From assembly GCA_014728085.1 (NCBI GenBank), contig WJMF01000153.1:38988-102987 (forward strand): DNA of 64,000 nt, given 5' to 3'. The notes beneath the pieces are model-generated. The model searched no databases and was not told the DNA's origin. It was given only the letters and a program-made list of their open reading frames with translations. This stretch comes from Candidatus Zhuqueibacterota bacterium. GTDB taxonomy: Bacteria; Zhuqueibacterota; Zhuqueibacteria; Residuimicrobiales; Oceaniaggregativiventaceae. The translations under genes were made by a program, and so were the position numbers. Shown here piece after piece: positions 9,059 through 35,315 of this stretch (position 1 is the first letter of the stretch; each line of letters opens with the position of its first letter).

Positions 9059-9109
9059 GTAACCATTTAAACCGTTAAAATCGTTTTAAAATTCCATTCA
9101 GGATAGCCG

Positions 9110-10186
9110 TTAAGCACAAGATTTCACAACCTGATATTTAAAAAAAGCGGCACATGTACCTTCGCTCGATACCATACAAGCTCCGATGGGTGAGTCGGGC
9201 CGGCACTCTTTGGCAAACAAACCGCATTGCAGGGGTGTTTTTATACCCTTCAGAATATCTCCGCAAATACAACCGGAAGGGGTCGGGGATTTTTTCACTT
9301 TAACCGGAAATCGGTAAAGAGCATCAAAACGCCTGAACCCGGATTTGATTGCCAGGCCACTGGCAGGAATCATGCCCAAACCACGCCACTCTGAATCACA
9401 CGGTTCAAAGACCCGATGCATTAGTGCCAGAGCTTTTGTATTTCCTATCGCTTTAACCACGCGGTCGTATTGTATCCCGGCAACACATTCGTTTCTCTTG
9501 ATTTGCCGACAAAGCATCAAGACGGAAACAAGTATATCACCCGGATCAAAACCGGAAACCACACAGGCAATATTATGATGCTTGGCCAGCCATTCATAAG
9601 CCTGAATGCCAATGATAGCACTGACATGCCCCGGACAGATCAAACCCTGAATTTGTATCTGACGGTCCGCGGCCAGGCGCTTCAATGCTTCCGGCATGGT
9701 TTTATGGGCACAAGCCACCGAAAAATTGGTTACCTTGTTTTCCCTGGCCATTTCAATGACAGCAGCAACAGCCGGAGCAGTGGTTTCGAATCCAACACCG
9801 ATAAAAATATAATGAAGATGCTTGTCTCTTATTGCCATTCTCAACGCATCAACCGGAGAGTAAACCACACGCACCTGATGTCCGTTCATTTTTTCACTCT
9901 CAAGGCTGGCTGAGCTTCCCGGAACCCGTATCAAGTCTCCAAAGGTGCAAATTACGGTATCATCCCGAGTGGCCAGCTGTAAAACCGCATCGATGAAATG
10001 AATCGGCGTCACGCATACAGGGCAGCCGGGACCGGAGACCAGTTGCAGATTCGATGGCAGCATTGACCGCAACCCGTACCGGTGTATAGCCATGGTATGG
10101 GTTCCGCATACCTCCATCAGGCGGATGGGCTCCTCTCCGCATTCGGTATGAATCTCATCTACAATTTTTTGAATTTCAGCCTTCAT
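9110..10186 (-). CDS. hypD: Hydrogenase maturation protein HypD
   Basis: 358 residues. HypD is the [4Fe-4S] scaffold that, with HypC, assembles the Fe(CN)2CO unit. Conserved elements: MEVCGTHTMAIH, SGPGCPVCVTP and GFETTAPA, and the C-terminal cysteine cluster (GCICGDIL ... QCGLFAKEC ... GTCAAFF) that binds the iron-sulfur cluster. Length is normal. It begins 8 bases after the hypC stop without a clear ribosome-binding site, suggesting coupling. Confidence 0.97.
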   Translation of the reverse strand: MKAEIQKIVDEIHTECGEEPIRLMEVCGTHTMAIHRYGLRSMLPSNLQLVSGPGCPVCVTPIHFIDAVLQLATRDDTVICTFGDLIRVPGSSASLESEKMNGHQVRVVYSPVDALRMAIRDKHLHYIFIGVGFETTAPAVAAVIEMARENKVTNFSVACAHKTMPEALKRLAADRQIQIQGLICPGHVSAIIGIQAYEWLAKHHNIACVVSGFDPGDILVSVLMLCRQIKRNECVAGIQYDRVVKAIGNTKALALMHRVFEPCDSEWRGLGMIPASGLAIKSGFRRFDALYRFPVKVKKSPTPSGCICGDILKGIKTPLQCGLFAKECRPDSPIGACMVSSEGTCAAFFKYQVVKSCA

Positions 10187-10194
10187 TTATTCGA

Positions 10195-10416
10195 TCACAA
10201 GGTAGAAATACCGTAATCCTTTCTCAATTTGATAGATTCCTGCGCTGCCGTGGCATCCATTTTCTCAATCGCAAATCCTGCATGCACAAGAACATAATCA
10301 CCAACGCCTATATTATCGATTAGATTAAGCTGGACTGTGCGTTTCACACCTTCCACTTGTGCAACAGCTTCATCACCGTCGATGGAGATGATTTTCATGG
10401 GGATTCCTAGACACAT
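10195..10416 (-). CDS. hypC: Hydrogenase maturation chaperone HypC
   Basis: 73 residues. It begins MCLGIPMKI; the cysteine at position 2 is the iron-binding residue of HypC/HybG chaperones. The small OB-fold pattern continues with VGDYVLVHAGFAIEKMD, which is diagnostic. It carries the Fe(CN)2CO moiety from HypD to the hydrogenase large-subunit precursor. It lies between hypF (8 bases) and hypD (8 bases), with AGAGG before the ATG. Only one hypC-type gene is seen in the window, so it probably serves the group 4 large subunit encoded at 25607-27292. Confidence 0.97.
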   Translation of the reverse strand: MCLGIPMKIISIDGDEAVAQVEGVKRTVQLNLIDNIGVGDYVLVHAGFAIEKMDATAAQESIKLRKDYGISTL

Positions 10417-10424
10417 AAAGGCCT

Positions 10425-12755: not shown

Positions 12756-13369
12756 TCTTCAATACCTTCTCCGGTAGCACATGAACAATTTATCCAAACA
12801 AGATCAGGATTTAATGCATATGCCTCTCGTTTCGGTTTTTCAACATCAAACGACTGCAATGTCAAATAATCGATCTTGTTTAAAATTATACAATCGGCTT
12901 TCTGAAATGTTGCAGGATATTTTTCCACTTTCTCATCACCTTCCGGAATGCTAAAGACTACCGTGCGGATATGCTCACCCAATTTGAATCCGGTTGGACA
13001 GACAAGATTACCGACATTTTCAATAAAAAGAATATCAATGGTTTTAAGATCAAAATCCTTCAAGGCCTTATTGACTTGTTGCGCCTCCAGATGACAGGCT
13101 CCCCCGGTCGTCAGTTGGGCACAGGGAATGCCATGCTGCTGTATGCGTTCGGCATCACGCGACGTAGCGAGATCTCCAACCAGAACAGCCGGGCGAAGAT
13201 TTACATTCTTCAAAGCGGAAATTGTTTTTTCCAACAAGGTGGTTTTCCCTGCTCCCGGTGATCCCAGGATCCCAACCACAAAAACCCGTTCCCGGTTAAA
13301 AAGGTCTTGATTCTCCTCAGCCAGGTAATCATTTGACTTTAATATATTCTCATAAATCGGAACTTGCAA
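12701..13369 (-). CDS. hypB: Hydrogenase nickel incorporation GTPase HypB
   Basis: 222 residues. The GTPase delivers nickel to the large subunit with HypA. P-loop GSPGAGKTTLLEKT (about 34-47), then VGDLATSRDAERI, the metal-site CHLEAQQV, FIENVGNLVCP, the base-recognition NKID, and CATGEGIEEW. There is no N-terminal histidine stretch and no high-affinity CxxCGC site, so nickel storage is not its role. The start is TTG 13369, with GGAGG 6-7 bases upstream inside the end of hypA (20-base overlap). The stop is TGA, showing that UGA normally terminates here. Confidence 0.95.
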   Translation of the reverse strand: MQVPIYENILKSNDYLAEENQDLFNRERVFVVGILGSPGAGKTTLLEKTISALKNVNLRPAVLVGDLATSRDAERIQQHGIPCAQLTTGGACHLEAQQVNKALKDFDLKTIDILFIENVGNLVCPTGFKLGEHIRTVVFSIPEGDEKVEKYPATFQKADCIILNKIDYLTLQSFDVEKPKREAYALNPDLVWINCSCATGEGIEEWINYLKTAREKRLNENG

Positions 13370-18797: not shown

Positions 18798-18806
18798 ATG
18801 CAATTA

Positions 18807-19298: not shown

Positions 19299-19318
19299 AA
19301 GGCTATATCCTCCTTGCA

Positions 19319-21403: not shown

Positions 21404-21907
21404 TCAATGTTCTTTGGGCAATATCATCGGCTCGTCAAGTTCCTGAAACTCGGGAAAGTCACTCTTGACTTTTTTGCTTACTTTTTTGGGCAACAAACCC
21501 AATGCAACTCCGACACCATACAAAATAGCTTCTGGTCTGGGTGGGCAACCGGGAACATAATAATCTACTGGTATCGCCTTGTCCACTGCACCGTACATGT
21601 TATAGCTGTCAAAAAAAACATCGCCACCACAGGCACAGGAGCCGATCGCAAATACCAGTTTGGGATTCGGCGTGGCATTGTAAAGCCGTTTAACAGCCGG
21701 AGCAATTTGCCGGCTTACGCCTCCGGTTACCAGGAGTACATCGGCATGGCGCGGTGAACCTACCAGCTTGATACCAAAACGCTCTGCATCATAATAAGGT
21801 GTGAGTACATTGATAATTTCAATATCACAGCCGTTACAGGCGGCACAGTTTGTATGATAAACCCAAAGTGCTTTGGGAAAGGCCTTTTTACATAGTTTTT
21901 TTAACAT
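21404..21907 (-). CDS. hyfI: Group 4 [NiFe] hydrogenase small subunit (HyfI/HycG, NuoB-like)
   Basis: 167 residues. It binds one [4Fe-4S] cluster and passes electrons to the [NiFe] site. Cluster cysteines: NCAACNGCDIEI (two used), GSCACGGD and VPGCPPRPEA. No signal peptide, so it faces the cytoplasm, as in complex-I-like hydrogenases. ATG 21907 has GAGGAAG at ideal spacing; ATG 21919 is an alternative. Last gene of the twelve-gene hydrogenase operon, 11-23 bases after hyfF. Confidence 0.92.
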   Translation of the reverse strand: MLKKLCKKAFPKALWVYHTNCAACNGCDIEIINVLTPYYDAERFGIKLVGSPRHADVLLVTGGVSRQIAPAVKRLYNATPNPKLVFAIGSCACGGDVFFDSYNMYGAVDKAIPVDYYVPGCPPRPEAILYGVGVALGLLPKKVSKKVKSDFPEFQELDEPMILPKEH

Positions 21908-21930
21908 AATCTTCCTCATTACCTTTCAGA

Positions 21931-23457
21931 TTATACACTACCGAGAGACCAGATAGATAAAACAGCTCTGGTTGCATTGTCCAGAATGGGATACAGGATT
22001 TGCGGATAGACGCCGATCAATATACACAAAAGAGCCAGTAGAACGATACTGAAATACATTAAGAAAGGAACTTCTTTTAGTTCGCCGTTTTCAAGATCGT
22101 TTATCGCTTTTGACGGGGCGCGCCAGAAAACCCGATAAGCCGCTGAGACCAGACAGGCAAGCGTCAGCAGACCGGTAAGAATCGAAATAACCATCGCCCA
22201 ATAAATACCCTGCTCACCAACAGCGAAAAAAAGTGTAAATTTACTCATAAATCCATTAAAAGGCGGTAACCCGCCAATGGCAAGGGCGCCGACGACGAAA
22301 CAGAATGCGGTTATTGGCATTTTCTTCGCCAGCCCTCCCAACTGGGAAATTTTACGCAGCCCCCCGGTAGCATACATGATCGCGCCCACACTCATAAAGA
22401 GCAATCCTTTTATCAATGTATGGTTGACCAGGTGAAAGAGACCGCCGTAAATTCCCAGATAGGTGCCAAGACCGAGACCTTCAAAGACATAGGCAATCTG
22501 ACTAACACTTGAATACGCCAGCATTCGCTTCAGATCATCCTGCACCAGAGCCAGAAAGATACCGATGAGCATACTCGCTGAACTGAGAATAGCAATAAAA
22601 ATAACGATGGAATTATAGGTCGGAGCGAAAATAGTCACGGTTCGGGCCAGCGCATAAGCGCCGATATTAATAATCAAACCGGACAACAGAGCACTGATGG
22701 GTGAGGGCGCTTCAGAGTGAGCATCAGGCAGCCAGGCATGAAACGGTACAAGGCCCGCCTTGGTGGCAAAACCGACCGTCATAAAAGCGACACCCAACAA
22801 AGCGATATTTTTCGGTATGAGTTGAGCGATTCGCCCGATTTCGGTAAGCAAAAGCGCGTGGGCTCCCACTTTGAGATGTGGATATGCTGCGGAAAAAATC
22901 AGAACGATACCCAGCAGGGCAAAGGTTATACCGACCACCACCAGTAAGACATATTTGTACCCGGCTTCGAGCGAAGCGCGTTTTCGATAAAAAGCCACCA
23001 ACAAGGCTGTTGCCAGCGTCGTGCCTTCCATCGCCACGTACAACATCACCATATGGTTGGTGCTAACCGTCCAATTCATGGTACCGGTAAAAAGCAAAAT
23101 GAGCGCGTAATAGAGGGTAAGACGCCCGTCGGTAACCAGGCCGAGCTCCCGCTCGTGTTTCATGTAGCGGATGGATTGCAGGGTTATCAGAATAACCATT
23201 CCATCAACAAGCAAAATGATCAATGCGCTCAATCCATCAACAAAAATACCCTGCCCCAATGCGGTTACCGTATTGCCGGCAAAGACAATCGCGGCCAAAC
23301 GAATGGCAACGAAAAATTCCACCACCAGAATGATCAGGGTGGTAATTTCACGTGCATTTTTAAATTTGCTAAAGCCAAACAGGACCGTAAAGATCGCCCC
23401 TAAAATAGGCAATAGGATTAAAATCAATGGTAAAAATGACTGGATGGGTTCTGCCAT
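21931..23457 (-). CDS. hyfF: Hydrogenase-4-type antiporter-like membrane subunit (HyfF-like)
   Basis: 508 residues, about 14 hydrophobic helices, complex-I NuoL/M/N and Mrp antiporter family. Key ion-path residues are present: Glu in MLYVAMEGTTLATAL, Lys in FATKAGLVPFHAWLPDAHSEAP, and Lys/His residues in the second half (VNHTLIKGLLFMSVG). The motif SEAPSPISALLSG fits HyfF. Function: proton or sodium translocation coupled to hydrogenase electron transfer. AAAGAGGT precedes ATG 23457. It is one of three antiporter-like subunits in this operon. Confidence 0.9.
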   Translation of the reverse strand: MAEPIQSFLPLILILLPILGAIFTVLFGFSKFKNAREITTLIILVVEFFVAIRLAAIVFAGNTVTALGQGIFVDGLSALIILLVDGMVILITLQSIRYMKHERELGLVTDGRLTLYYALILLFTGTMNWTVSTNHMVMLYVAMEGTTLATALLVAFYRKRASLEAGYKYVLLVVVGITFALLGIVLIFSAAYPHLKVGAHALLLTEIGRIAQLIPKNIALLGVAFMTVGFATKAGLVPFHAWLPDAHSEAPSPISALLSGLIINIGAYALARTVTIFAPTYNSIVIFIAILSSASMLIGIFLALVQDDLKRMLAYSSVSQIAYVFEGLGLGTYLGIYGGLFHLVNHTLIKGLLFMSVGAIMYATGGLRKISQLGGLAKKMPITAFCFVVGALAIGGLPPFNGFMSKFTLFFAVGEQGIYWAMVISILTGLLTLACLVSAAYRVFWRAPSKAINDLENGELKEVPFLMYFSIVLLALLCILIGVYPQILYPILDNATRAVLSIWSLGSV

Positions 23458-23469
23458 GAGTTTACCTCT

Positions 23470-24135
23470 TTATCTCTTCAATTCAGAGAGCTTGACTGTG
23501 TCTGTTGATCCGAATACTTGATAAATATTTGAACTAAGAAATAGCAGCAAAAACACTACAGCCACAACATTTGTGAGAATGCCGATCATTGTTGTTTCGC
23601 GCAGAGTCGGTGTCAAAGCAAGAAGAACAAGATGTACACCATTTTCCAAAAGCGCCAATCCGATTACTGTTTTGACTGCATCCCGCCGGGTCAGCAGGGT
23701 CCAGATACCCAATGCAAAAATAGTAAAAGCACCGGCAAGCAGACTGCGGACTGGCTCCTGCATGGCTGCTTCCGTTGGTGCCAGTAAAAAAAGATATTTT
23801 TTGAATAAATAAAAGAAAACAACCAAAATAATCGATACCAGGGTTAGAGAGATTCCAAATCCGATAATTGGACGATGTTCAACGGGAGGCAAAATTCTTA
23901 CAAACCTGAGAATCATATAGGGGAGAACAACGACCTTGGTAATAAAGCAGGTAATGGCCCAAAGATAAAGGCTTGGGTTATCCTTTATATAGGCATAGCT
24001 GATGATGATTGCACATAAAAAGATCGAATGCAGCATATAGGCCAATGCAGTGTTTTTTAAATTCCGTATCTCTGCGGCGGCAATCGAGGCAATTAATATC
24101 GCCAGGGTCAGTGTGACCAGCGTTTGTTCTGTCAT
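23470..24135 (-). CDS. hyfE: Hydrogenase-4 membrane subunit HyfE-like
   Basis: 221 residues with about 6 hydrophobic helices. The second half (VIGLALLENGVHLVLLAL) resembles the NuoK/MrpC fold with its conserved glutamate, which is how HyfE proteins are built. It forms part of the membrane arm. The start ATG 24135 overlaps the upstream gene's TGA (ATGA), indicating translational coupling. Its place between hyfH and hyfF matches hydrogenase-4 gene sets. Confidence 0.87.
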   Translation of the reverse strand: MTEQTLVTLTLAILIASIAAAEIRNLKNTALAYMLHSIFLCAIIISYAYIKDNPSLYLWAITCFITKVVVLPYMILRFVRILPPVEHRPIIGFGISLTLVSIILVVFFYLFKKYLFLLAPTEAAMQEPVRSLLAGAFTIFALGIWTLLTRRDAVKTVIGLALLENGVHLVLLALTPTLRETTMIGILTNVVAVVFLLLFLSSNIYQVFGSTDTVKLSELKR

Positions 24136-24629
24136 TTTTTATCCTCCTCCCTCTGCGGTGGTGCTCCGGAAGGCATACAATCTCCCAAAAAATTACGCCC
24201 CTGCCGCAGACGCCTGGTCGGAATTTTATCGATACTATTCTCGATTTCAAAACAACGGCCACAGCGAGCGCAGGTCGCCATATAGAGATCCTGTTCAATG
24301 TACAAATCGGTTTTATCATTGGTTGAGGTTTCAAATTCAATCGTCATATTTATTGCTTCTTCCGGACAAACCTCCTCGCAGCGGCCGCAATATGTACAGC
24401 GATCGAGGATAAATTCCATACGGGTTTGGTCGCCGTCATCATAAAACCGGATCAGCCGGGAAGGACATACATTGGCACAGCCACCGCAGCCGATACATTT
24501 GGTTTCATCAATGTCCAGTTTGCCGCGAAACCCCTCCGGAATTTCAGCGCCGTTACCAAACGGATAAGGAAGCGTAACCCGCAAATTCGAGAAACAAATT
24601 GCCGCTTCTTTGATTTTAGATTTGAACAT
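24132..24629 (-). CDS. hyfH: Hydrogenase iron-sulfur subunit (HyfH/HycF, NuoI-like)
   Basis: 165 residues. Two [4Fe-4S] ferredoxin motifs, CIGCGGCANVCP and CTYCGRCEEVCP (about 45-95), as in NuoI. A third cysteine group further on (CARCGRCFEIE) is incomplete for a cluster. It carries electrons between the soluble input subunits and the hydrogenase small subunit. AGAGGATAT precedes ATG 24629. It ends in TGA, overlapping hyfE. Confidence 0.92.
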   Translation of the reverse strand: MFKSKIKEAAICFSNLRVTLPYPFGNGAEIPEGFRGKLDIDETKCIGCGGCANVCPSRLIRFYDDGDQTRMEFILDRCTYCGRCEEVCPEEAINMTIEFETSTNDKTDLYIEQDLYMATCARCGRCFEIENSIDKIPTRRLRQGRNFLGDCMPSGAPPQREEDKK

Positions 24630-24666: not shown

Positions 24667-25581
24667 TCAGGATCCGGCCAAGGCAAAAGCCAATCCAATG
24701 ATGGTGATAAAAATCAGAACAGCAAAATACCTGACCGCCTGGTCAATGCGCAACCGGGGATTAACAACATGAACAACGCCGACAACGACAAGCATCACCA
24801 GGATTTTGACCAGGGTATAGAGAAAATTTACAATAAAAACCTCTGAATGAAACCAGGGTATGAAAATGGAAACAAAAACCGCCGCAAATATGAGCTCTTT
24901 GGCGTAAAACATCCATTTGAACAATGCCAGTTTGGGGCCGCTTTGCTCAACAAAGGGTCCCTCCATAATTTCCTGATCCGCTTCGACAATATCAAAGGGT
25001 AGACGGGCCAGTTGGGCCACAATAGAAATAAAAAGTACAATACCGACAATAACCATCGAAAGCGGGAAGGGGTTGTTCTGAAAATGGGCAATAATGGCAC
25101 CGAACTGAAGCGAGTCGGCGTTGACTGCAGCAACAATCAACGCAATGACAATGACCGGTTCCACCGTTAAAACCATCATCATCTCGCGGGCAGCACCCAA
25201 AACGCCGTATGGGCTCTCGGAGGTCACACCACTGAGCATAATCATTACCGCTGAAAAGGAGAGCATATAAATAAAAACAATAATATCCCCACCTGCATTC
25301 AGCGGCGGAGCAGCAGCTATCGGTGACAAAAGAGCGACCAGCAAAATCGCACCAAAGCCCAGAACAGCGCTATACCGAAAGAAAAAATTGTTCGAAGAAA
25401 CAATTTCCTCCTTACCCAACAATTTGAGTAAATCGAGATAAGGCTGGTATAATGGCGGACCGATTCGTGAATGCACAATCGCAACCAGCTTTCGTATGAT
25501 CCCCTCCAGTAATGGTGAAAGTAAAATCACAAGCAGGAGGTTGAATAAAGCCAATCCCAGATTTTCCATGGACAAACTCAT
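24667..25581 (-). CDS. hyfC: Hydrogenase membrane anchor subunit (HyfC/HycD, NuoH-like)
   Basis: 304 residues, about 8 hydrophobic helices. Signatures of the NuoH/HyfC family: RIGPPLYQPYLDLLKLLGKEE near the N-terminus and RLPFDIVEADQEIMEGPFVE in the middle, which line the quinone-like/ion pathway next to the large subunit. TGGAG precedes ATG 25581. It joins the hydrogenase core to the antiporter-like arm. Length matches HycD (about 307). Confidence 0.93.
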   Translation of the reverse strand: MSLSMENLGLALFNLLLVILLSPLLEGIIRKLVAIVHSRIGPPLYQPYLDLLKLLGKEEIVSSNNFFFRYSAVLGFGAILLVALLSPIAAAPPLNAGGDIIVFIYMLSFSAVMIMLSGVTSESPYGVLGAAREMMMVLTVEPVIVIALIVAAVNADSLQFGAIIAHFQNNPFPLSMVIVGIVLFISIVAQLARLPFDIVEADQEIMEGPFVEQSGPKLALFKWMFYAKELIFAAVFVSIFIPWFHSEVFIVNFLYTLVKILVMLVVVGVVHVVNPRLRIDQAVRYFAVLIFITIIGLAFALAGS

Positions 25582-25606: not shown

Positions 25607-27292
25607 CTATTTCTTTTTGAACCTGTTTTTAGCAAGTTCAAAAAGTTCCTTTTTAGAATAAACCTTTAGCTTACCGGTTCGCACATCTACAACCTCGAGG
25701 CGTTCGGTACACGAAAAACAGGGGTCCATACTACCGAGACCGATCGGTACATCCGCCACATTGTCTCCGAGCACCATGATAGGAACACCCTGAAGATTCT
25801 GAAAAGTCGGGGCGCGAGCTTTCCACCTGTAGGGACGGTTATCTTCGCCGGTAATAACAAAATGATGTGTTTCACCACGGGGCGCTTCGACTGAAGATAA
25901 CCCCACTTTACCAGGAGGGATCTTTTCATCCATTTTGGCAATAATAGGACCGTCAGTCATCATCTTGAGAGAGTCGCGGATAATACGAACGGCTTCGAGA
26001 GTTTCCTTGATGCGGACCACCACCCTCCCCCATATATCTTCGCTGGTTTCGACAATGACTTCGCAACCGGTTTCCGGATAAGCCGCATAAGGATGGTCGA
26101 TTCGAATGTCAATTGCAACGCCCGATGCACGCGCAGTCGGTCCCAGCAGGGCATAGTCGAGGGCTTGTTTGTTGGTAATGACGCCGACATTTTTACAACG
26201 CATATGCAACGTGGTATCGTTCACTACTGCATTGAGGACGGCTTTCGTCTCCTTGAAAACCCTGTCCAATATCTCATTGACTTCCGGGTGAATCGATTTG
26301 GGTATGTCTCTGCGCACACCACCAACCAGGTTCACTCCGAGAAGTTTGCGGTTTCCGGTAAGTTTCTCGCAAAGCCACATCACCGGTTCCCGAATTCTCC
26401 ACGCCTGCATCAGAACCGTATCAAAACCGAGAATGTGACCTGCAATTCCGAGCCACAACAAGTGACTTTGTATCCGCTCCAACTCCAGACAAATGGTGCG
26501 GATATAACGCCCTCTGGTCGGAACTTCAATATCTGCTGCTTTTTCAACTGCTTGACAGTACCCCGTACTGTGTACTGTCCCTCATATACCGCAGATACGT
26601 TCGGCCAGGAAGGGAACCTGGTTGTAATTCAGCTGACTATCAGCGATCTTTTCAATACCGCGGTGATTGTAAAAGCCGCGATAATCGCCGCCAACCACCT
26701 CCTCACCCTCGACAAAAAGGCGAAAATAGGCGGGTTCTTCAAGTACGGGAAAAAAGGGTCCGATAGGGACAACCGTACTTCCTTCGGGCGGCTCTTTCAT
26801 TTTGACTTTATTTTCAAAAAAACTCGGCGGATTGATATCGTGTTTGACATCTCGCCTCAAAGGATGCAGGTCTTCGGGCCAGTCATCCGAAAGAACCAGC
26901 CTCCTGGGATCCGGATGATTCTGTAGTTTGATGCCCAGTAAATCCTGAATTTCCCGTTCCGCCCAGTTTACCGCCGGCAAATCCGATTCGGTCATTACCG
27001 AGTTGAACCATAAATCCTTTTCCGGAATTTGTTGCCGAACAGTTACGAAGAGATGGTCGGCTGCGAAGGAAAAGACATAATCGATTAAATAGTCTCTACC
27101 CAGTTCACGGCCATCTGTTCCCACTGTAACAACGAAGCGGCCTCCCATATCATGAAAAAGATGACGGACAATCGCAGCGGCATCATCGCGATCAATGGTA
27201 ACCATTACCATATCAGCCACCGGAATCTCTGCTTTGATAATCTTGTCCTTGAATCGTTCCTGGAGATGCTCAAAGAGTTCTTGAGTGGTCAT
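25607..27292 (-). CDS. hyfG: Group 4 [NiFe] hydrogenase large subunit with in-frame UGA (predicted selenocysteine)
   Basis: Read through one UGA (26582-26584) this gives 561 residues, matching HycE/HyfG (about 570). A NuoC-like domain (1-150) precedes the NuoD-like catalytic domain with HRGIEK. The N-terminal nickel motif reads RICGI-UGA-GTVHS, where HycE has RVCGICGFAHS, so UGA (codon 237) replaces exactly the second cysteine; Cys234 is kept. Homology continues in the same frame without gap (LERIQSHLLWLG, NLVGGVRRD) to the C-terminal DPCFSC (525/528). TER before LEVV is the likely HycI cleavage site, removing 30 residues. A SECIS-like hairpin follows the UGA. I infer Sec237; a nonsense mutation is the alternative. 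The start is ATG 27292 with GGAGG 8-9 bases upstream (TTG 27310 unlikely). Confidence 0.88.
26554..26579 (-). promoter_or_regulatory. Putative bacterial SECIS element in the hydrogenase large-subunit mRNA
   Basis: Starting 2 bases after the UGA, the minus strand reads GACAGTAC ACAGTAC GGG GTACTGTC. ACAGTAC (26571-26565) pairs perfectly with GTACTGT (26561-26555), leaving a GGG tri-loop that begins 17 bases after the UGA. A guanine at the first loop position and a loop 16-37 bases after UGA are the reported bacterial SECIS features, and the distance is close to that in E. coli fdhF. A competing 8-bp stem (26579-26572 with 26561-26554, 10-base loop) is also possible. The structure is predicted by eye only. 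Confidence 0.65.
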
Positions 27293-27325: not shown

Positions 27326-29404
27326 TTACAAATGACCGCTATGCCCCGCGAGCAAAAAGAGGACAACAACGGCCAATACAGTTCCAATGATAAGCCATAA
27401 CAGATATAGATGGGGCACACCACTGTGGGTGGCGCTAAAACGTTTCATCAGAGCCATAAAACGATTTACCAGCGGATCATAGAACCACTTGTCTATATCT
27501 GTTATGCGTTTGAATAAATTATTGCCAAAAGTTATTTTGGGATATCCGATAGAAGGGTAGACGCCTTCACGTTCATATTTTCCGATGCGAATGCGAAACA
27601 TCTTCTTAAACGGCAGATAAAAACTATGGGCCCGATATCTTACCTCTTCATCGCTATGCTCTTCACCGCAATACCAGGTCGTATCCGCACGGCGCGGTGC
27701 GGACCCGGAACGATAGAATGCATAGGCGATTAAAATACAAAAGAGCCCCACAAGGGTAAGCAGTAGCGGATTCCATACCGCAAAAACGCCTTCTCCATAA
27801 TTGGTCATCAAACCACCCAAACTATCTGTCCCATAAATGGATTGCATCGGCGGAAAAAAATCAGCTTCCAGCAATGAAGCGATTGATTTGTGGACATATT
27901 TTAAAGGTAGAATAGGGACAATACCAAAAATAATGCTGAGCAATGCCATTACGATTTGCGGTATCATCATGGTCAGTGGCACTTCCTTGCGTTTCGCTTT
28001 AGTATTGTTATCCGCATATTTACCATAAAAAAGAGTGCTGGTAAACTTGACAAACGATGCCAGCGTTACAATGGAAATAAAAAGAGCGATAATGCCAAAT
28101 CCGAGAATCAGAGGATTGGTTATCGCCGCCCGTATCGAACTTTGATAAATGAGCCATTTGCTTGAAAAACCGCTTAGAGGAGGAACGCCTGAAATCGATA
28201 ATGAAGCAATGACAGCAATAACAGCAGTCATTGGCAAAACGCGGTGCAAACCACCCACCAGATTAAAGTTTGTGGTACCGGTCTTCCAAACAACCGAACC
28301 CGCATTGAAAAAGAGACAGGATTTATAACACACATTGTTAATCAAGTGGAAAACACCGGCGGACAGAGCAACAATAGCTAAAACCGGTTGAACATTGAGA
28401 AAATAAACCCCCATACCCACACCGAGAAAAATATATCCCATCTGTCCGATAACGTGGAAGGAAAGCAATCTTTTGGTTTCTTCCTGAACTAGTGCAGTGA
28501 GGGTACCGACAAAAATCGAAATCGTTCCCATCAGGGCAATAATAATACCCCAGGTTTGGCTAAAATCGGAAACCGGTAAAATATCCACAAATATTCTTAT
28601 CACTCCATAAACGCCAAGCTTGGTCATGCTTCCGGCAAATGCGCTGCTTGCCGGTATGGGAGCAGATGAATATGCATCCGGCAGCCAGTCACCCATGGGC
28701 AGGATACCGGCTTTGGTGGCAAAAGCGAGAAATAAGAACAGCAGCGCCAGATGTAAAAGTCCGGGATTGGAAACGGACATGCTCTGCATCGCCTGTTCCA
28801 GGGCGTCGAAGGAGAACGAACCACCCTGCAAATAAATTATAATAACAGCGATAAACATGAGAGCTGTTGCGATATGGGTGATAAGAAAATACTTGAATCC
28901 GGCCCGCAAGGTATCTTTATCGCGTTTGTTGAATATGACCAGGAAATAGGAAGCGAGCGTCATGATTTCCCAAAAGATAAAAAAGAAAAACATATCCACA
29001 ACAACCACAACATACATGACGCTGGCGAAAAAAATCATCAGCACCGGAAAAAATGCGCGCAAACTCAAATCCGCAAATATCTTAAGATTCATATACCTGA
29101 CTGCATACAAGGCAACCATAAAACTGACCAGCGCGATTATGCCGAGGAAAAGGGCACTGAGCAAATCAATCCTGAGGAGAAGACCTGAATCAATGCCGGG
29201 GACCTCGATCAAGGGGGCATTTAGCTGGGCGGTACCGCTGCTGAAAACGGTGAACACCACACTTAGAACCCCTATAGAACTCAACGCAAAGAAAACGGTG
29301 CTCAATTTGCTTGTCAATTCGCGACGATTACCGAGTATCCAGGTAACAATTGCACCCAGTACGAGTAAGAGAGTAGAAATTATAAATAACTGGATGGGAT
29401 TCAT
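27326..29404 (-). CDS. hyfB: Hydrogenase-4-type antiporter-like subunit with C-terminal extension (HyfB/HycC-like)
   Basis: 692 residues, about 16 hydrophobic helices, NuoL/HyfB family. Ion-path residues: Glu in FFFFIFWEIMTLASYF, Lys in FATKAGILPMGDWLPDAYSSAP, and residues in HLINNVCYKSCLFF. Beyond about residue 520 comes a further domain: more helices, a cytoplasmic stretch (TTWYCGEEHSDEEVRYRAHSF) and a last transmembrane helix, as in HycC/HyfB where the tail anchors the subunit against the core. It overlaps no neighbour; hyfG starts 33 bases later. Confidence 0.9.
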   Translation of the reverse strand: MNPIQLFIISTLLLVLGAIVTWILGNRRELTSKLSTVFFALSSIGVLSVVFTVFSSGTAQLNAPLIEVPGIDSGLLLRIDLLSALFLGIIALVSFMVALYAVRYMNLKIFADLSLRAFFPVLMIFFASVMYVVVVVDMFFFFIFWEIMTLASYFLVIFNKRDKDTLRAGFKYFLITHIATALMFIAVIIIYLQGGSFSFDALEQAMQSMSVSNPGLLHLALLFLFLAFATKAGILPMGDWLPDAYSSAPIPASSAFAGSMTKLGVYGVIRIFVDILPVSDFSQTWGIIIALMGTISIFVGTLTALVQEETKRLLSFHVIGQMGYIFLGVGMGVYFLNVQPVLAIVALSAGVFHLINNVCYKSCLFFNAGSVVWKTGTTNFNLVGGLHRVLPMTAVIAVIASLSISGVPPLSGFSSKWLIYQSSIRAAITNPLILGFGIIALFISIVTLASFVKFTSTLFYGKYADNNTKAKRKEVPLTMMIPQIVMALLSIIFGIVPILPLKYVHKSIASLLEADFFPPMQSIYGTDSLGGLMTNYGEGVFAVWNPLLLTLVGLFCILIAYAFYRSGSAPRRADTTWYCGEEHSDEEVRYRAHSFYLPFKKMFRIRIGKYEREGVYPSIGYPKITFGNNLFKRITDIDKWFYDPLVNRFMALMKRFSATHSGVPHLYLLWLIIGTVLAVVVLFLLAGHSGHL

Positions 29405-29463: not shown

Positions 29464-30921
29464 TTATATAAAAATCAACTTTACCAAAAATAATGCCACC
29501 ACCGGAGCAACCAGGGTCAACACAGACATAACCACCAATGCAAACGAAATTGCAAAGGGTAGTTTCCCCGCATTTGAAGCAGTGGTTGAAACACGACCGA
29601 AAAAGACCTTGTGACCGACATGCAAAAACCAGGCAAAAGCAATAATAATCTCCAGTAAAAAAGGTATCAGCAATAGAATACCCACCGTTCCTCCGACATC
29701 AAGGGTTCCGATCAGGAGATAAAATTTACTCCAAAAACCGGAGAAGGGCGGTATTCCGAGTATTGCAAACATACCTGTAAAAAAGGCAACGGCAATTAAA
29801 GGTGACGTTTTTGCCAGACCGCTTAATTGCTTAATGCTTCGGCTGCCACTCACATAAGAGATGGCACCGACACAGAGAAACAGCAATCCTTTACCGACAC
29901 CATGGTTCATAATGTGCATCAGACCGCCCATCAGACCCGTGGTGGAGCCCATGATTCCCAAACCGATACCAAAAAAAACATAGCCCAGATGCGCGATGGT
30001 GGAATAGGCCAGTAATCGCTTGAGATCGTCCTGGTAAAAGAACAAGTAAAGCGCAACCAACATGGTCACCACCGCCATAATCCCGACCAGGAGACCGGAT
30101 CCGAAAGCCAGGTCGCTGTTTGCAACCGCGAGTCTCGATATCAGAAATACGCCCGCTTTAACCATCGCAGCAGCGTGCAAGTACATGCTCACCGTTGTCG
30201 GAGCGGCCATTGCATCCGGAAGCCAGGTAAAGAACGGAACCTGCGCTGATTTTGCCCAGGCAGCGACGAGAAAAAAGAAAAAGACCCAGCCTTTTAGCTC
30301 AGGTGAGAGCTGACTGACGGCAGAAAACTCGAAACTGCCCGTTGATACAAACAAAATGACCAGCCCAATAGCAAAAAAGATACCACCGGAAAATGTCATA
30401 AGCAGAGCCTTGAATCCCGCTTTTAGTGAATCTTCATTTCGGTAATGCGAAATCAATGCCCACGAACAGAGCGTTGTCATTTCCCAGAAAATGTAGAGCT
30501 GAAACAGATTGGGGGACATGGCCACGCCAATCATCGAAGCGACGAATAAAAGCATCCAAAAGTGATGTCTCTGCCTGCCTTCTTCAGTGGGATGTTCCTT
30601 GTTGCCCCTGGATAGATAAGCCGTACTGTAGACGATATTCAGAAATCCAAGTACAACCACCACCAAAAGCATGATCAAGCCGAGCGGATCAATTTGAAAC
30701 CCAAACAAACCATCAACGAGATGGTCCTGCAGCCATTGCAGCTGAACGGGAACGGTACGAAACGAAAGGTCCGGCGGAAGATTCAAAAAAAGAGCAGCGG
30801 TTAAAAGCAATGCCCCTGTGCCCGCAATAACGGCAATGACATTCGTTCCTTTCTTTACCATCCCGGCAATAACAGCACCCAAGATCGGAAAAAGCAGTAA
30901 CAAAATAAGTATTGTTCCCAT
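29464..30921 (-). CDS. Additional NuoL/MrpA-like antiporter subunit of the hydrogenase
   Basis: 485 residues, about 14 hydrophobic helices. Ion-path residues: Glu in YIFWEMTTLCSWALISHY and Lys in WAKSAQVPFFTWLPDAMAAP, followed by TTVSMYLHAAAMVKAGVFL with its conserved His/Lys, and a later MHIMNHGVGKGLLFL. The MYLHAA..VKAG form is closer to NuoL/MrpA-type subunits than to HyfF. E. coli Hyc has one such subunit and Hyf three, so this complex is built on the larger plan. It sits between the maturation protease and hyfB. The exact equivalent (HyfD or other) is not clear, so no symbol is given. Confidence 0.87.
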   Translation of the reverse strand: MGTILILLLLFPILGAVIAGMVKKGTNVIAVIAGTGALLLTAALFLNLPPDLSFRTVPVQLQWLQDHLVDGLFGFQIDPLGLIMLLVVVVLGFLNIVYSTAYLSRGNKEHPTEEGRQRHHFWMLLFVASMIGVAMSPNLFQLYIFWEMTTLCSWALISHYRNEDSLKAGFKALLMTFSGGIFFAIGLVILFVSTGSFEFSAVSQLSPELKGWVFFFFLVAAWAKSAQVPFFTWLPDAMAAPTTVSMYLHAAAMVKAGVFLISRLAVANSDLAFGSGLLVGIMAVVTMLVALYLFFYQDDLKRLLAYSTIAHLGYVFFGIGLGIMGSTTGLMGGLMHIMNHGVGKGLLFLCVGAISYVSGSRSIKQLSGLAKTSPLIAVAFFTGMFAILGIPPFSGFWSKFYLLIGTLDVGGTVGILLLIPFLLEIIIAFAWFLHVGHKVFFGRVSTTASNAGKLPFAISFALVVMSVLTLVAPVVALFLVKLIFI

Positions 30922-30931
30922 GCGTATTCAC

Positions 30932-31408
30932 CTATGTCCGTGTTTTCGACAGACCTTTGAAAATTTTTTCTAATTTTAATAGCGTTTCTTTTACTTCATT
31001 ACTTAATGGCGAATGGTAATCCGTCCGTTTGGGCTGGATACCCAACAAAAGAACCTTGGCTTTGATTTCTGTTGATAAATAGTGCATCAACAAACCCAGG
31101 GACGGTCGATGAGATGAAAATCGATTTTCAAATTCCACCGTCTCCATCAGAACCACATCGCCGGGTTCTCCGCTAAAATCGATCGCATCGACCAGAATTA
31201 TAGTTTGAGGATTTTTATCGCGAACCACTCCTGTAAAATTTTCAGGCATCTCTTCTGTGGCAACACCGGTAAAATTTTTCTCTTTGCTCAATCTCTCGGC
31301 CAGCATGGTTCCGACAGCATCATCCCCGCGTAAGGGATTACCGATTCCGAGCACCACCGTTCGGCCGCTGATATATTGCTGCAGCTCTTTAGCAAGCGTT
31401 TCCGACAT
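30932..31408 (-). CDS. hycI: Hydrogenase maturation protease, HycI type
   Basis: 158 residues. A nickel-dependent endopeptidase that trims the C-terminal peptide of the large subunit after nickel insertion. Conserved elements: LGIGNPLRGDDAVG near the N-terminus with the metal-binding acidic residue, LVDAIDFSGEPGD in the middle, and LLLGIQPKRTDYHSPLS, which is close to HycI. Length matches HycI (156). Its substrate is most likely the product of 25607-27292, which retains a cleavable tail after DPCFSCTER. Confidence 0.92.
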   Translation of the reverse strand: MSETLAKELQQYISGRTVVLGIGNPLRGDDAVGTMLAERLSKEKNFTGVATEEMPENFTGVVRDKNPQTIILVDAIDFSGEPGDVVLMETVEFENRFSSHRPSLGLLMHYLSTEIKAKVLLLGIQPKRTDYHSPLSNEVKETLLKLEKIFKGLSKTRT

Positions 31409-31414
31409 TGATCA

Positions 31415-32239
31415 TTATTTTTCCGGTAACCGTTTCATTTGTTTATAGGAGAATACGGGGCCATCGACACAGACATATTTATGCCCAATGGCGCAATGCC
31501 CGCATTTGCCCACACCGCATTTCATATAGCGTTCAAGCGTTGAAATAATTCTATCTTCGGGAAATCCCATCGTCAGGAGATCCTGAATCACAAATCGAAT
31601 CATGATGGGAGGTCCGCAAGTAAAGGCAACAGTGGTCTTGCTGTCAATTTTGACGTTTTCGAACAGTGTGGTCACAACACCGACATGTTCATCCCAGTTA
31701 TCATCCGCCTGATCCACGGTCTGCATGATCGTTACATCTTTGCGTTGGGACCACGCTTCAAGCTCTTTGGTGTGTATCCGGTCTTTCGGTGTGCGGGCAC
31801 CGTATAAAATCGTAAATTCACCATAATCATCCCGTGCATCCAGCATGGGTTCGATAAGTGATTTCAACGGCGGCAATCCGATACCGCCGGCAACAATAAG
31901 AATATCAAATCCTTTTGATTCCTCAAGGGGAAAAGAATTTCCCAATGGCGCCCGAATACCCATCGTATCGCCGACTTTTAATCGATGCATGGCTTCGGTC
32001 ACTCTGCCGACTACCCGTACGGTAATATCAAAAGTACCTTTGTGGTTGGGATTGGATGAAAAGCCAAACGGTGCTTCCCCAACGCCGAACAGGGATGCCT
32101 CGACAAATTGTCCTGATTTGTAAGAAAATTTCTCATTGTACGCTTTATCCTCGAAAGAAAGCGTGAAGGTTTTTGCATCATAGGTTTCATCAATGATATC
32201 TTGAATAACCGCCACTTGAGGTAGATAAATATTTTCCAT
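31415..32239 (-). CDS. FAD/NAD(P)-binding electron-transfer subunit (sulfhydrogenase gamma/AsrB-like)
   Basis: 274 residues. FAD-binding barrel (about 1-110, GQFVEASLFGVGEAPFGFSS), NAD(P)-binding domain (about 115-225, VAGGIGLPPLKSLI and TCGPPIM) and a C-terminal [2Fe-2S] motif, CGVGKCGHCAIGHKYVC (about 240-256). This is the ferredoxin-NADP reductase-like subunit seen in archaeal sulfhydrogenase (HydG) and anaerobic sulfite reductase (AsrB). It would exchange electrons between NAD(P)H and iron-sulfur clusters. GGAGAAGG precedes ATG 32239. With the AsrA-like subunit upstream it forms a diaphorase module for the membrane hydrogenase. Confidence 0.88.
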   Translation of the reverse strand: MENIYLPQVAVIQDIIDETYDAKTFTLSFEDKAYNEKFSYKSGQFVEASLFGVGEAPFGFSSNPNHKGTFDITVRVVGRVTEAMHRLKVGDTMGIRAPLGNSFPLEESKGFDILIVAGGIGLPPLKSLIEPMLDARDDYGEFTILYGARTPKDRIHTKELEAWSQRKDVTIMQTVDQADDNWDEHVGVVTTLFENVKIDSKTTVAFTCGPPIMIRFVIQDLLTMGFPEDRIISTLERYMKCGVGKCGHCAIGHKYVCVDGPVFSYKQMKRLPEK

Positions 32240-32263: not shown

Positions 32264-33346
32264 TTAGGATTGTGCTTGCGCGTTGTCGGTTTGTTTTTCC
32301 ATATAGCCATCCCGCCGAATGCGTTTAACCACTGCCGCCATATCCAATAATCCGAATGCCTCACAAACGGTTATACAGCGCCCGCATCCGACACATCCCG
32401 GATGACCGTCCTGATTAATATAAGCATAACTTAACTTATGATAAAAACGTCTCTTAACGCGTTCTTTTGTTTTGCCTCGCGGGTTGTGACCCGACGCCTC
32501 GTGAGTAAATCCGCAATATTGACAGGAATCCCAAAAACGGAAACGCACTCCATTCTTCTCATCCGTCATGGTGTCCTGAACATCATAACAGGTACAAAGA
32601 GGACAAACATGGGTACATCCGCCGCAACTAAAGCATTCGGCGCCAAACTGTTCCCACAGCTCTTCCTTTACCCTGTTGTTGCTGATCTGAATGATCGCTT
32701 TCGCCAGATAAGCAACCGGTACCATTTTTTCATCGCATGCTTGCATCAACTGCTGGCGTAAATCCTCATCTTTTGCGGTAGCTTTGTTGGTCGTTATTTT
32801 GCTCAGAATATCGATGCCTTTTTGCGTACCAACATCGACAAGAAAGCGATCGCCGAAATCGGTCAATTGCAGATCAAAACCAGAGTCCAGCCAGGGACCG
32901 CCATTACAGCAAATGCAAAAACAGGTGTCCAGAGGCACGTTACAAGCCATTGAAATAACCACCATCTTGTTGCGTCTGGCCCAGTAATAATTGTCCACAT
33001 AGGCTCCGCTGAAAAAGCCATCCTGATGGGCAAATCCCTGTACATCGCAGGATCGAACCCCAAAAAGAATAAACGGATTGATATCTTTTGGCGGCGTAAG
33101 GTTGAAATTGTTTGTTTGACCTGAGAATTGAAACAATTCCTCCCGGGTTGGGGTTAGAAAACGCTTCAGAGGTTCATATTCATTGACATAATCAAAGGTA
33201 ATCTCATCCGTAGATGATATTTCATCGAACGTGACTTCCCCGTCCGCCATTTTTTTGGGACCGATGATATCATAATCGCTTTTTAGAGAAATCAATAGAT
33301 CGAGAAATTGTTTTTTATCAACGATATATTTTTCACCAACCTTCAT
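32264..33346 (-). CDS. Iron-sulfur electron-transfer subunit (sulfhydrogenase beta/AsrA-like)
   Basis: 360 residues from ATG 33346; GGAGAG lies just upstream and the FDH-like gene's stop is 1 base before. An N-terminal domain with cysteine stretches (GVRSCDVQGF, CFCICCNGGPW) is followed by two [4Fe-4S] motifs, CGGCTHVCPLCTC (about 245) and CVGCGRCITVC (about 325). This matches the beta subunit of cytoplasmic sulfhydrogenases and AsrA, which wire NAD(P)H-oxidising flavoproteins to the catalytic unit. It is the middle gene of the three-gene input module. An in-frame extension to 33403 lies inside the upstream gene and is unlikely. Confidence 0.88.
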   Translation of the reverse strand: MKVGEKYIVDKKQFLDLLISLKSDYDIIGPKKMADGEVTFDEISSTDEITFDYVNEYEPLKRFLTPTREELFQFSGQTNNFNLTPPKDINPFILFGVRSCDVQGFAHQDGFFSGAYVDNYYWARRNKMVVISMACNVPLDTCFCICCNGGPWLDSGFDLQLTDFGDRFLVDVGTQKGIDILSKITTNKATAKDEDLRQQLMQACDEKMVPVAYLAKAIIQISNNRVKEELWEQFGAECFSCGGCTHVCPLCTCYDVQDTMTDEKNGVRFRFWDSCQYCGFTHEASGHNPRGKTKERVKRRFYHKLSYAYINQDGHPGCVGCGRCITVCEAFGLLDMAAVVKRIRRDGYMEKQTDNAQAQS

Positions 33347-33347
33347 A

Positions 33348-35315
33348 TCAACTCTCCAATTTCGCTGCACAGATCTTGGTGGGGGTCTTGGATCTGGGCT
33401 CATATTTAAAAGAAAGCAATTCCTGGGTCAACCCATTCTTGTCATGAACAGGAACCACGATAGTCTTTTTGGGAATAGTGGAATCAGCCAGCACCCTCCG
33501 CACCACCTCTCCTCTTCTGGTTTTGACTTTGATTTGCCATCCCGTTCGTACTTTTAATTCCCGTGCATCTTCGTTGTTGATATAAACTGCACCTTGCAGA
33601 TATTCCTTTTCAAGTGTATATGAACGGTTAACCTGAGTTCCGGTAATACGGTGGAAAGGCATGCGGTCAACAATCAGAGTAAATGGGTATTCATCATTCG
33701 GCGCTTCAACCGGCTCTGCGACCTTGCCATCGAGGAGAAAGGATAATGGCTGTTCAATCGCAGGTTTGGGTAGTATTACGCCACCCTTGACGCTGATCTG
33801 TCCAAAGTCGATACCGCTATAGCGATCGACCGTTTCAGTTATCTTGGTGAATATATCTGCCGCTCCCTCAACGGACAAATTTTTACCCATTTCTTTGGCA
33901 AGCAGAGAAATAATTTCATCATCGGGTTTACAGCTACCTACAGGCTCAATGGCCTTGTAAATCCTTTGCAGACGGCTTTCCGTGCTTGTATACGTTCCGT
34001 TCTTTTCAGCAAAACTCGCCGCCGGCAAAACCACATCCGCCAGTGCAGCCGTCTCGGTTAAAAACAAATCCTGCACCACCAAAAGATCCAGCTTTGCCAA
34101 TGCTTTTTCGACCGCCTTGCAATCGGGTGCGCTCCAGGCCAAATTTTCCCCAACGATAAAAAGAGCACGGATATCCCTACCGATTTGATTGATCATTTCA
34201 GGAAGAGTGAGGCCGGGGCTCTCCGGCAAGGTGCACTGCCAGGCTTTTTCAAAGCGCGTGCGGTTCTCTTCCCGGCTAATGGAGAGCTGCCCCGGAAGCT
34301 TGTCCGGCAATACCCCCATGTCCCAGCTGCCTTGCAGATTGTTTGAAATCATCAGAGGGAGAATACCGTTTCCCTCACCTTCAACATGACCTGTCAGGAC
34401 AGCTAAATTCCAGAGAGCCTGTACGGCAGCCGTGCCATTCATGGATTGAGTGACACTGTGTCCATATAATATCATGCTTTTTTCGGCAGCTGCATGCATT
34501 TCTGCAGCACGGATGATTTCCTTTGCAGGAACTCTGGTTTTTTGTTCACACGCTTTGGGAGTAAACTCTTTTACCTTGCTTTCCAGTTTTTCAACCTGCG
34601 CATCTTCAACCCTGTACTTTCCGGAATCAATGATATGATTGATCATCCCATTGATTACCCAAAGAATAGTCTCTGCCGAGGGTTGAAGATGCATCGTGAA
34701 AAAACGGGTCAACTCGTGCCGAATATAGTCGACCTCAATACAAGCGGTGCCTCTGTTTACGGATTGTAAGCAGAGTGAACCGATGGCAGCCAATTGATCT
34801 TTGACGTTACAACCAACCAGCAGCACATTATCCGTTTTTTCGAGGTCCAAAATAGACGCGGTTGCTGCAACCGGAAAGAGCTTGCTCTCCAGTGCTGTCA
34901 GCGTTGGTGCCTGATAAAAACGGGCGGAGGTATCGATATTGTTGGTACCAATAACCGAACGGGCAAATTGTCCGAGGAGATAATTTTCCTCATTGGTACA
35001 TTTAATCGATCCAATGAAACCGATACTATCAGGTCCATATTTGGATTTGATCTCGGATAGGGAATTTGAAACGGATTGAATTGCTTTTTGCCAGGGAATT
35101 GTTTTGAAAGAGTTGTCTTGTTTGAAAAGAGGTTGGTCGAGTCGCTGTTGATGGTGAATCATCTGGTGGCCGTTCCAGCCTTTGATACAGAGCGTGCCCC
35201 TGCTCATAGGGTGAGCTCTTTGCGGCAACGTTGAAAGCGCCTGACCCTCGACTGCTTCCAAATACATACCACATCCACTACCGCAAAAGGGGCAGGACGT
35301 AAGAACCTTGCTCAC
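33348..35315 (-). CDS. Formate-dehydrogenase-H-like molybdopterin subunit lacking the Sec/Cys ligand
   Basis: 655 residues, molybdopterin oxidoreductase family. N-terminal [4Fe-4S] ligands Cys8, 11, 15 and 43 (CPFCGSGC, LCIKG) with the conserved Lys45, then the cofactor domains (GTNNID; WDMGVLPD, which matches FdhF CDMGALPD; DIFMT-like LFLTETA) and the C-terminal cofactor-binding domain (HRITGTQVNRS). At the active site FdhF has DCCARV-Sec-H-G-P; here it is DTSARF-Tyr134-Gln135-A-P. With neither Sec/Cys nor the catalytic His, formate oxidation is unlikely; an electron-relay role like NuoG is my inference. GTG start with AGGAGG upstream. First gene of the operon. Confidence 0.85.
   Translation of the reverse strand: MSKVLTSCPFCGSGCGMYLEAVEGQALSTLPQRAHPMSRGTLCIKGWNGHQMIHHQQRLDQPLFKQDNSFKTIPWQKAIQSVSNSLSEIKSKYGPDSIGFIGSIKCTNEENYLLGQFARSVIGTNNIDTSARFYQAPTLTALESKLFPVAATASILDLEKTDNVLLVGCNVKDQLAAIGSLCLQSVNRGTACIEVDYIRHELTRFFTMHLQPSAETILWVINGMINHIIDSGKYRVEDAQVEKLESKVKEFTPKACEQKTRVPAKEIIRAAEMHAAAEKSMILYGHSVTQSMNGTAAVQALWNLAVLTGHVEGEGNGILPLMISNNLQGSWDMGVLPDKLPGQLSISREENRTRFEKAWQCTLPESPGLTLPEMINQIGRDIRALFIVGENLAWSAPDCKAVEKALAKLDLLVVQDLFLTETAALADVVLPAASFAEKNGTYTSTESRLQRIYKAIEPVGSCKPDDEIISLLAKEMGKNLSVEGAADIFTKITETVDRYSGIDFGQISVKGGVILPKPAIEQPLSFLLDGKVAEPVEAPNDEYPFTLIVDRMPFHRITGTQVNRSYTLEKEYLQGAVYINNEDARELKVRTGWQIKVKTRRGEVVRRVLADSTIPKKTIVVPVHDKNGLTQELLSFKYEPRSKTPTKICAAKLES

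Follow-up and report, generated by a model that had tools for sequence, protein, structure and literature searches.

A UGA codon predicted to encode selenocysteine at an N-terminal bridging ligand of group 4 [NiFe] hydrogenases

The 64-kb stretch of DNA analysed here (hereafter the window) contains a gene for the large subunit of a group 4 (Hyf/Hyc-type) [NiFe] hydrogenase whose frame is interrupted at codon 237 by a UGA, and in all likelihood this codon is read as selenocysteine (Sec) by means of a downstream hairpin, which would make selenium the N-terminal bridging ligand of the metal site. The combined evidence from coding, selection, the hairpin and the Sec machinery allows Sec to be predicted with high confidence. 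By kind, the gene is very probably a [NiFe] hydrogenase selenoprotein that lies outside the classical [NiFeSe] type, since the C-terminal Sec of that type was looked for and is absent. It also seems likely that energy-converting group 4 [NiFe] hydrogenases repeatedly evolved N-terminal selenium ligation, with a bridging Sec in KSB1/Calditrichota, a double-selenium RxUGxU motif (terminal plus bridging) in a Deltaproteobacteria/Myxococcota-labelled group and in Armatimonadota, and one hairpin for both UGAs; these enzymes would form a new natural [NiFeSe] class, the mirror image of the known one.

An earlier note on this DNA had described the frame as open save for one UGA that falls exactly at the second Cys of RxCGxC, in a protein that resembles HycE and HyfG in length and has only Cys in its C-terminal motif, and each of these points was borne out by our analysis (Table 1). 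The single internal stop is the TGA at codon 237, which lies in the peptide FLAERICGI-UGA-GTVHSTGY; the C-terminal motif, MDPCFSCTER, retains both of its Cys residues, and the product contains the Pfam domains PF00329, PF00374 and PF00346. The best solved relative is Escherichia coli HycE (7z0s chain E), which is alike in domain order and length, aligns over query residues 9-552, and has a Cys opposite the UGA (RVCGICGFAHS). The complex I-like large subunit, with its 30-kDa and 49-kDa parts, is that of a group 4 enzyme of the HycE/HyfG type, and its operon contains the NuoB-like small subunit and the NuoH-like and antiporter-like membrane subunits that go with it. Both metal-binding motifs are present, as RICGI-UGA and DPCFSC; in the first, UGA takes the place of the second ligand codon, so this motif is complete only if the UGA yields Sec or Cys.

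Table 1. Positions in the window of the hydrogenase large-subunit gene, its ligand codons and predicted hairpin, and neighbouring genes.
Feature	Position	Strand	Remarks
HyfG/HycE-like [NiFe] hydrogenase large subunit	25607..27292	-	561 codons, UGA counted as a sense codon; 30-kDa, NiFe and 49-kDa domains
UGA codon 237	26582..26584	-	predicted selenocysteine at second Cys of RxCGxC; aligns with second N-terminal Cys of HycE
Codon 234, first Cys of RxCGxC	26591..26593	-	TGC in the window gene; UGA in 7 of the 98 homologues
Codons 525 and 528, C-terminal ligands (DPCFSC)	25709..25720	-	TGT and TGT, both Cys
Predicted bacterial SECIS hairpin	26555..26571	-	arms 26571-26566 and 26560-26555; 5-nt loop 26565-26561 (CGGGG)
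HyfI/NuoB-like small subunit	21404..21919	-	PF01058
HyfF-like membrane subunit	21931..23457	-	
HyfE-like membrane subunit	23470..24135	-	
HyfH-like iron-sulfur subunit	24132..24629	-	
HyfC/NuoH-like membrane subunit	24667..25581	-	
HyfB-like membrane subunit	27326..29404	-	
HyfD-like membrane subunit	29464..30921	-	above NCBIfam cut-off
HycI-like hydrogenase maturation protease	30932..31408	-	
AsrB/HydG-like FAD/NAD(P)-binding electron-transfer subunit	31415..32239	-	
AsrA/HydB-like iron-sulfur subunit	32264..33403	-	
Formate-dehydrogenase-like molybdopterin subunit	33348..35315	-	Tyr at aligned Sec/Cys position (by eye)
Maturation genes hypE, hypD, hypF and HypB/CobW-type GTPase	8048..13369	-	downstream of the hydrogenase genes

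Global reassignment of UGA was rejected, since 7 of the 20 window genes that were checked end in TGA. The formate-dehydrogenase-like, HyfH-like and HypB-like genes all end in TGA, as had been claimed before, so UGA acts as an ordinary stop elsewhere in this DNA.

Scanning the contigs of named genomes gave 80 loci, some of them from genomes that also belong to the phylum set described below; the 153 loci pooled in all represent 119 distinct genes, of which 98 were kept at a threshold of at least 46% identity and 21 were dropped. UGA occupies codon 237 only in 15 of these 98 genes, codons 234 and 237 in six (L080, L082, L093, L106, L108 and L138) and codon 234 alone in one (L068), with Cys at both N-terminal ligand codons in the other 76. 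As in selenoprotein genes, an in-frame UGA is therefore aligned with the Cys of homologues (22 UGA genes versus 76 Cys genes). The aligned parts of the 98 genes contain 29 in-frame stops, 28 of which are TGA at codon 234 (7) or 237 (21); the one that remains is a TAA at codon 558, near the C-terminus, and all 22 UGA genes are free of any further stop. Both C-terminal ligand codons are TGC or TGT in 93 genes, with one or both missing or masked in the other five.

A similar pattern was found when whole phyla were surveyed. In the phylum set (82 genomes, one per species), 20 genomes have a match at E <= 1e-100, and all 15 orthologues at 65% identity or more, the window's gene and one partial match (L034) among them, contain exactly one TGA, always at codon 237; the other five matches, which are 44-46% identical and cover only the 3' two thirds of the gene, contain none. 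The phylum of L093 has a match at E <= 1e-120 in 8 of 395 genomes (two TGAs in five, one in one and none in two), and that of L106 has matches in 46 of 291 genomes, with two TGAs only in the genome of L106 itself. The lone TGA of another genome in that phylum (G519) was rejected as a ligand codon, its ligand codons being TGC. Neither of the two homologues found among 400 genomes of the phylum of a Chloroflexi locus (L100) contains an internal TGA.

A pseudogene or an error of sequencing or assembly could be suspected because the source genome (5.19 Mb, 244 contigs, 97.9% complete, one copy of the large-subunit gene) was examined here as an assembly. However, the identical codon is shared by 15 species of the phylum set and recurs in other lineages, a second in-frame stop is absent from all 22 UGA genes, and the sequence 3' of the UGA is under purifying selection, so virtually no chance is left to this explanation and we conclude that the UGA at codon 237 is real. 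Alignment of homologues at this codon, a check that the earlier note had put forward, in this way found UGA kept in relatives from separate records.

Selection on the two sides of the UGA also bears on whether it could be a true stop that divides the gene into two polypeptides, the second made by reinitiation. Databases hold the gene as fragments, some of them named Ni,Fe-hydrogenase III component G, and the 30-kDa and 49-kDa parts of complex I are often separate subunits, both of which would suit a split gene. But the break lies inside the metal motif, away from the domain border, and the first possible restart is codon 271, past the motif, yet pN/pS (14 full-length codon-237 genes, 91 pairs) is 0.225 in codons 238-271, compared with 0.31 before the UGA and 0.24 after it. 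Constraint on the RNA as well would be expected to lower pS, which is 0.51 over codons 238-271 and 0.67-0.71 elsewhere. Two polypeptides would also lose one metal ligand and would leave unexplained both the hairpin and the fact that UGA is the only type of stop at ligand codons. A split gene is thus exceedingly unlikely, and it was rejected, like a pseudogene or an assembly error, on conservation and selection; relatives with degraded downstream frames, which the earlier note had named as evidence against Sec, were sought, and the frames proved to be intact and under purifying selection.

Most of the fragments listed break at the positions where translation of the UGA as a stop would end. A search with the 236-residue N-terminal piece against a set of 5.8 billion proteins returned 371 at E <= 1e-20, and of the 120 matches listed, 79 end in RICGI, 35 in ERI, five continue with CGIC and one is of another kind. 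Hence 114 of these 120 fragment clusters, one entry being the window itself, end on the residue just ahead of one or the other N-terminal Cys codon. The search admitted proteins of 0.55-1.75 times the fragment length, which excludes full-length forms, and compared proteins rather than the codons that follow, so these counts indicate break points and not frequency. The source names of some fragments are NADH-quinone oxidoreductase subunit C and Ni,Fe-hydrogenase III component G.

Downstream of the UGA, every one of the 22 UGA genes can form a six-pair stem (G-U allowed) from bases 14-19 and 25-30, with the U of codon 237 as base 1; the same is true of 3 of the 76 Cys genes. According to the accessible text of a recent inventory, a bacterial SECIS element has a stem of 4-16 bp, a loop of 3-9 nt with a G in its first two positions, and a UGA-to-loop distance of 16-37 nt (PMC13188914), and the predicted hairpin has a 6-bp stem, a 5-nt loop with G second, and a loop that follows codon 237 by 16 nt and codon 234 by 25 nt. 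Since both spacings are within the model, a single hairpin could suffice for the two UGAs. When the peptides were recoded synonymously with the codon use of each gene, the UGA set had on average 3.48 of the six pairs, compared with 6.0 observed, and the Cys set 2.66, compared with 2.72 observed. The statistic treats related genes as independent, and the pairs were chosen after the sequences had been viewed; for this reason the weight is placed on the contrast between UGA and Cys genes. Among the 15 codon-237 genes the residue is invariant in 240 columns; a single codon is used throughout in eight of these, and five of the eight are codons 241, 242, 243, 245 and 246 (hypergeometric P 9e-9, relatedness ignored).

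Folding gave a similar contrast. All six pairs are present in the minimum-energy fold of 48 nt in 19 of the 22 UGA genes versus 2 of the 76 Cys genes, and in that of 54 nt in 18 of 22 versus 3 of 76. The UGA genes that fold in another register are L001, L021 and L022 at 48 nt, the window's own gene being among them, and also L093 at 54 nt. In the window, ACAGTAC occurs twice in tandem at 26579-26554, which creates a competing hairpin register of higher stability; this register is not used in most relatives. The six-pair hairpin alone has an energy of -4.4 to -6.6 kcal/mol, and the 48-nt stretches, 3 of 22 in the other register, have -7.6 to -16.0 kcal/mol, the published limit being -7.5. One compensatory pair was found (in L106), a degree of covariation that was equalled by 36 of 500 shuffles, and Rfam has no match at the hairpin. 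The three Cys-form genes with all six pairs (L055, L061 and L102) carry them after a TGT or TGC at codon 237; in these genes the hairpin could be left over from an earlier SECIS, could be on the way to becoming one, or could result from coding constraint.

The machinery for Sec insertion, which the earlier note had proposed as a further check, was found in full in the window's genome: selA (563 bits), selB (352 bits), a tRNA-Sec (68.5 bits) with anticodon UCA (ARAGORN), and three selD genes above the cut-off (on contigs C33, C53 and C27), one without an internal stop and two with an in-frame TGA. KSB1 genomes have been reported to contain selA, selB and selD, except in one clade, and no selC (accessible text of PMC9012183), so this tRNA-Sec fills the reported selC gap for the window's genome. 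Elsewhere, selA is above the cut-off in 20 and selD in 19 of the 21 UGA genomes tested, with selB sought in the window's genome only, and a tRNA-Sec of at least 60 bits is present in 16 of 22 UGA genomes; in the other six the best matches are tRNA-Ser or tRNA-Gly. Some of the misses fall in incomplete genomes, while one genome listed as 100% complete (G028) has no strong tRNA-Sec and a congener (G023) has one, and another (G060) has neither selA nor selD above the cut-off nor a strong tRNA-Sec. The presence of tRNA-Sec was rejected as a discriminator, since a match of at least 60 bits occurs in 25 of 52 Cys-form genomes as well as in 15 of 21 UGA genomes. One genome with the double-UGA form (G267) contains, in addition to a tRNA-Sec(UCA), a 98-nt tRNA (C18:22198-22289; L183 1499-1596) that scores 63.7 bits to the tRNA-Sec model and has the anticodon GCA, for Cys codons. 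Sec tRNAs with sense anticodons have precedent.

The coding evidence taken alone demands read-through and nothing more, and the amino acid at the UGA might for the most part be another one, either Cys (made from thiophosphate) or Trp or Ser inserted by suppression; Cys at UGA has precedent in other organisms. Against this, the spacing, loop and stem of the hairpin agree with the published SECIS model, selA, selB, selC and selD are in the genome, and UGA strikes only Cys ligand positions, so that a residue other than Sec appears very unlikely. The earlier prediction of Sec at the second N-terminal Cys is in this way supported by conservation of the UGA, by intact downstream frames and by the machinery in the genome. 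The hairpin shared among relatives, the recurrence in several lineages and the genes with UGA at both N-terminal ligands or at the first alone are additions to that note.

A quick tree, built without the motif columns from 97 of the 98 genes (L127 dropped as too short), places the genes with UGA only at codon 237 on one side of a branch with a support of 97. The double-UGA genes, of which L106 is on a long branch, need two changes on this tree, and the four states need four in all, versus a mean of 20 after shuffling. A second quick tree, short and partly unresolved, was built from 206 N-terminal pieces, including 114 database fragments, and requires 18 changes. Given these counts, our claim is held to the occurrence of UGA in at least three lineages, namely KSB1/Calditrichota, the Deltaproteobacteria/Myxococcota-labelled group and Armatimonadota, with the numbers of changes read without direction (gain or loss).

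The bridging ligands between Ni and Fe in [NiFe] sites are the second Cys residues of the two motifs. Codon 237 aligns with position 256 of the HycE chain, which is presumably native Cys244 once a 12-residue tag is subtracted. Codon 525, in turn, aligns with HycE Cys531, named as the terminal ligand in the proton path (accessible text of PMC9474812). An AlphaFold2 model of the large subunit (22-row alignment, residue 237 entered as Cys) has a mean pLDDT of 85.6, and the solved fold nearest to it is 7z0s_E (TM-score 0.89/0.93, 38% identity). It is conceivable that Sec is inserted and yet does not bridge Ni and Fe in the mature enzyme, as the confidence of the model is low (pLDDT below 50) around residues 526-533 and the solved structure used for comparison, HycE, is a Cys form. 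This is nonetheless very unlikely, because HycE aligns residue by residue through the motif and is the nearest fold, and because C234, C237, C525 and C528 are invariant in the 22-sequence alignment (with the window's residue 237 read as C). A bridging Sec is also chemically feasible, as indicated by E. coli Hyd-2 variants with Sec singly at Cys61, 64, 546 or 549, each of which was active in H2 oxidation, below the native level (accessible text of PMC11212049).

A plausible course of events begins with SelB, which would bind the hairpin together with Sec-tRNA(UCA), insert Sec and pre-empt termination by RF2, the required parts being present. The genes that accompany the hydrogenase suggest that the full-length chain would then receive Fe(CN)2CO and Ni from Hyp proteins and that a HycI-like protease would cut it. 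At the resulting site the Ni ligands would be three Cys and one Sec, whose selenium would form part of the bridge, and relatives with UGA at codons 234 and 237 would have two Sec, one terminal and one bridging. The operon also encodes NAD(P)/FAD and iron-sulfur subunits, to which the enzyme would be linked as a membrane-bound hydrogenase. The role of selenium is the least certain step; it would likely tune the enzyme towards H2 evolution and ease its recovery from oxidation. In Hyd-2, Sec at the proton-path Cys favoured H2 production (accessible text of PMC11212049).

Most of the 18 loci examined carry Hyf-type neighbours arranged as in the window, with L102 an exception and some contigs ending early; among these loci, no HycI match was found in L068, L082, L093 or L108. 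The formate-dehydrogenase-like neighbour has the motif TSARFYQAP, whose Tyr we take, from alignment by eye, to stand at the position of Sec or Cys in formate dehydrogenases; for this reason the subunit is probably no standard formate dehydrogenase. Elsewhere in the window lie two genes (16770-18803 and 19319-21274) whose products combine an N-terminal [FeFe]-hydrogenase-like domain and a histidine kinase domain; the gene that separates them (18807-19319) encodes a response regulator. The two proteins may act as H2 sensors for the hydrogenase cluster.

A standing question about hydrogenases is where selenium sits in the [NiFe] site and why known natural cases use a terminal C-terminal ligand. 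If our proposal is correct, natural bridging and double-Sec sites would provide evolved test cases beside the engineered ones, and these would fall in membrane-bound, energy-conserving hydrogenases related to complex I. It would also add a selenoprotein family whose members are now in databases as pieces of ~235 residues under other names.

Among known systems, the closest are E. coli HycE of formate hydrogenlyase and HyfG of hydrogenase 4, which share with the window gene the domain order, length, both metal motifs and a Hyf-type operon; HycE, however, has Cys at the aligned position, where the window gene has UGA. The selenoprotein of the E. coli system is its formate dehydrogenase, whereas the formate-dehydrogenase-like neighbour in the window has the Tyr described above.

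The [NiFeSe] hydrogenases of groups 1a, 3a and 3c (HysA, FrhA and Vhu) have, as predicted for the window gene, a Sec in place of a Ni-ligating Cys of the large subunit. Their Sec is the non-bridging proton-path ligand (accessible text of PMC11212049), whereas the window gene has its UGA in the N-terminal motif and only Cys in the C-terminal one. The DPUxxC motif of the classical type, with Sec at the first C-terminal Cys, was not found, as none of the 98 genes (93 of them fully readable at codons 525 and 528) has TGA at these positions. The classical enzymes also differ in group, since the accessible part of the HydDB table gives [NiFeSe] variants for groups 1a, 3a and 3c (PMC5037454) and the window hydrogenase belongs to group 4; its best NCBIfam matches are NuoD-type, with none above the cut-off among the 25 listed, and the scores to the HysA and VhuA models are far below their cut-offs.

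The earlier note knew of no described case of an N-terminal Sec, and our survey of the literature agrees. The accessible table of a 2026 inventory of 119 selenoprotein families or subfamilies includes the hydrogenase large subunits FrhA and MvhA/VhuA/VhuU with UxxC and has no HycE-type or N-terminal Sec case (PMC13188914), nor was one found in the accessible text of ten other papers (PMC1794560, PMC9312934, PMC11227280, PMC11291895, PMC9723677, PMC8318568, PMC2398784, PMC12013277, PMC9961374 and PMC13111528). In the literature accessible to this search, bridging Sec was found in laboratory-made enzymes only. The double-UGA relatives resemble bacterial UxxU selenoproteins, which have two Sec three residues apart, but the UxxU families in the accessible part of the inventory are Prx-like proteins, a metal-binding protein (putative mercuric reductase) and FmdB, and include no hydrogenases (PMC13188914).

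Engineered Sec variants of E. coli Hyd-1 and Hyd-2 offer a parallel for a bridging selenium: we regard Cys64 of HybC as the counterpart of the bridging residue, and the enzyme with Sec there was active (accessible text of PMC11212049). These variants were made in the laboratory via UAG, with one Sec each (PMC11212049), whereas the window gene would represent a natural, UGA-coded counterpart in another hydrogenase group, with double forms among its relatives.
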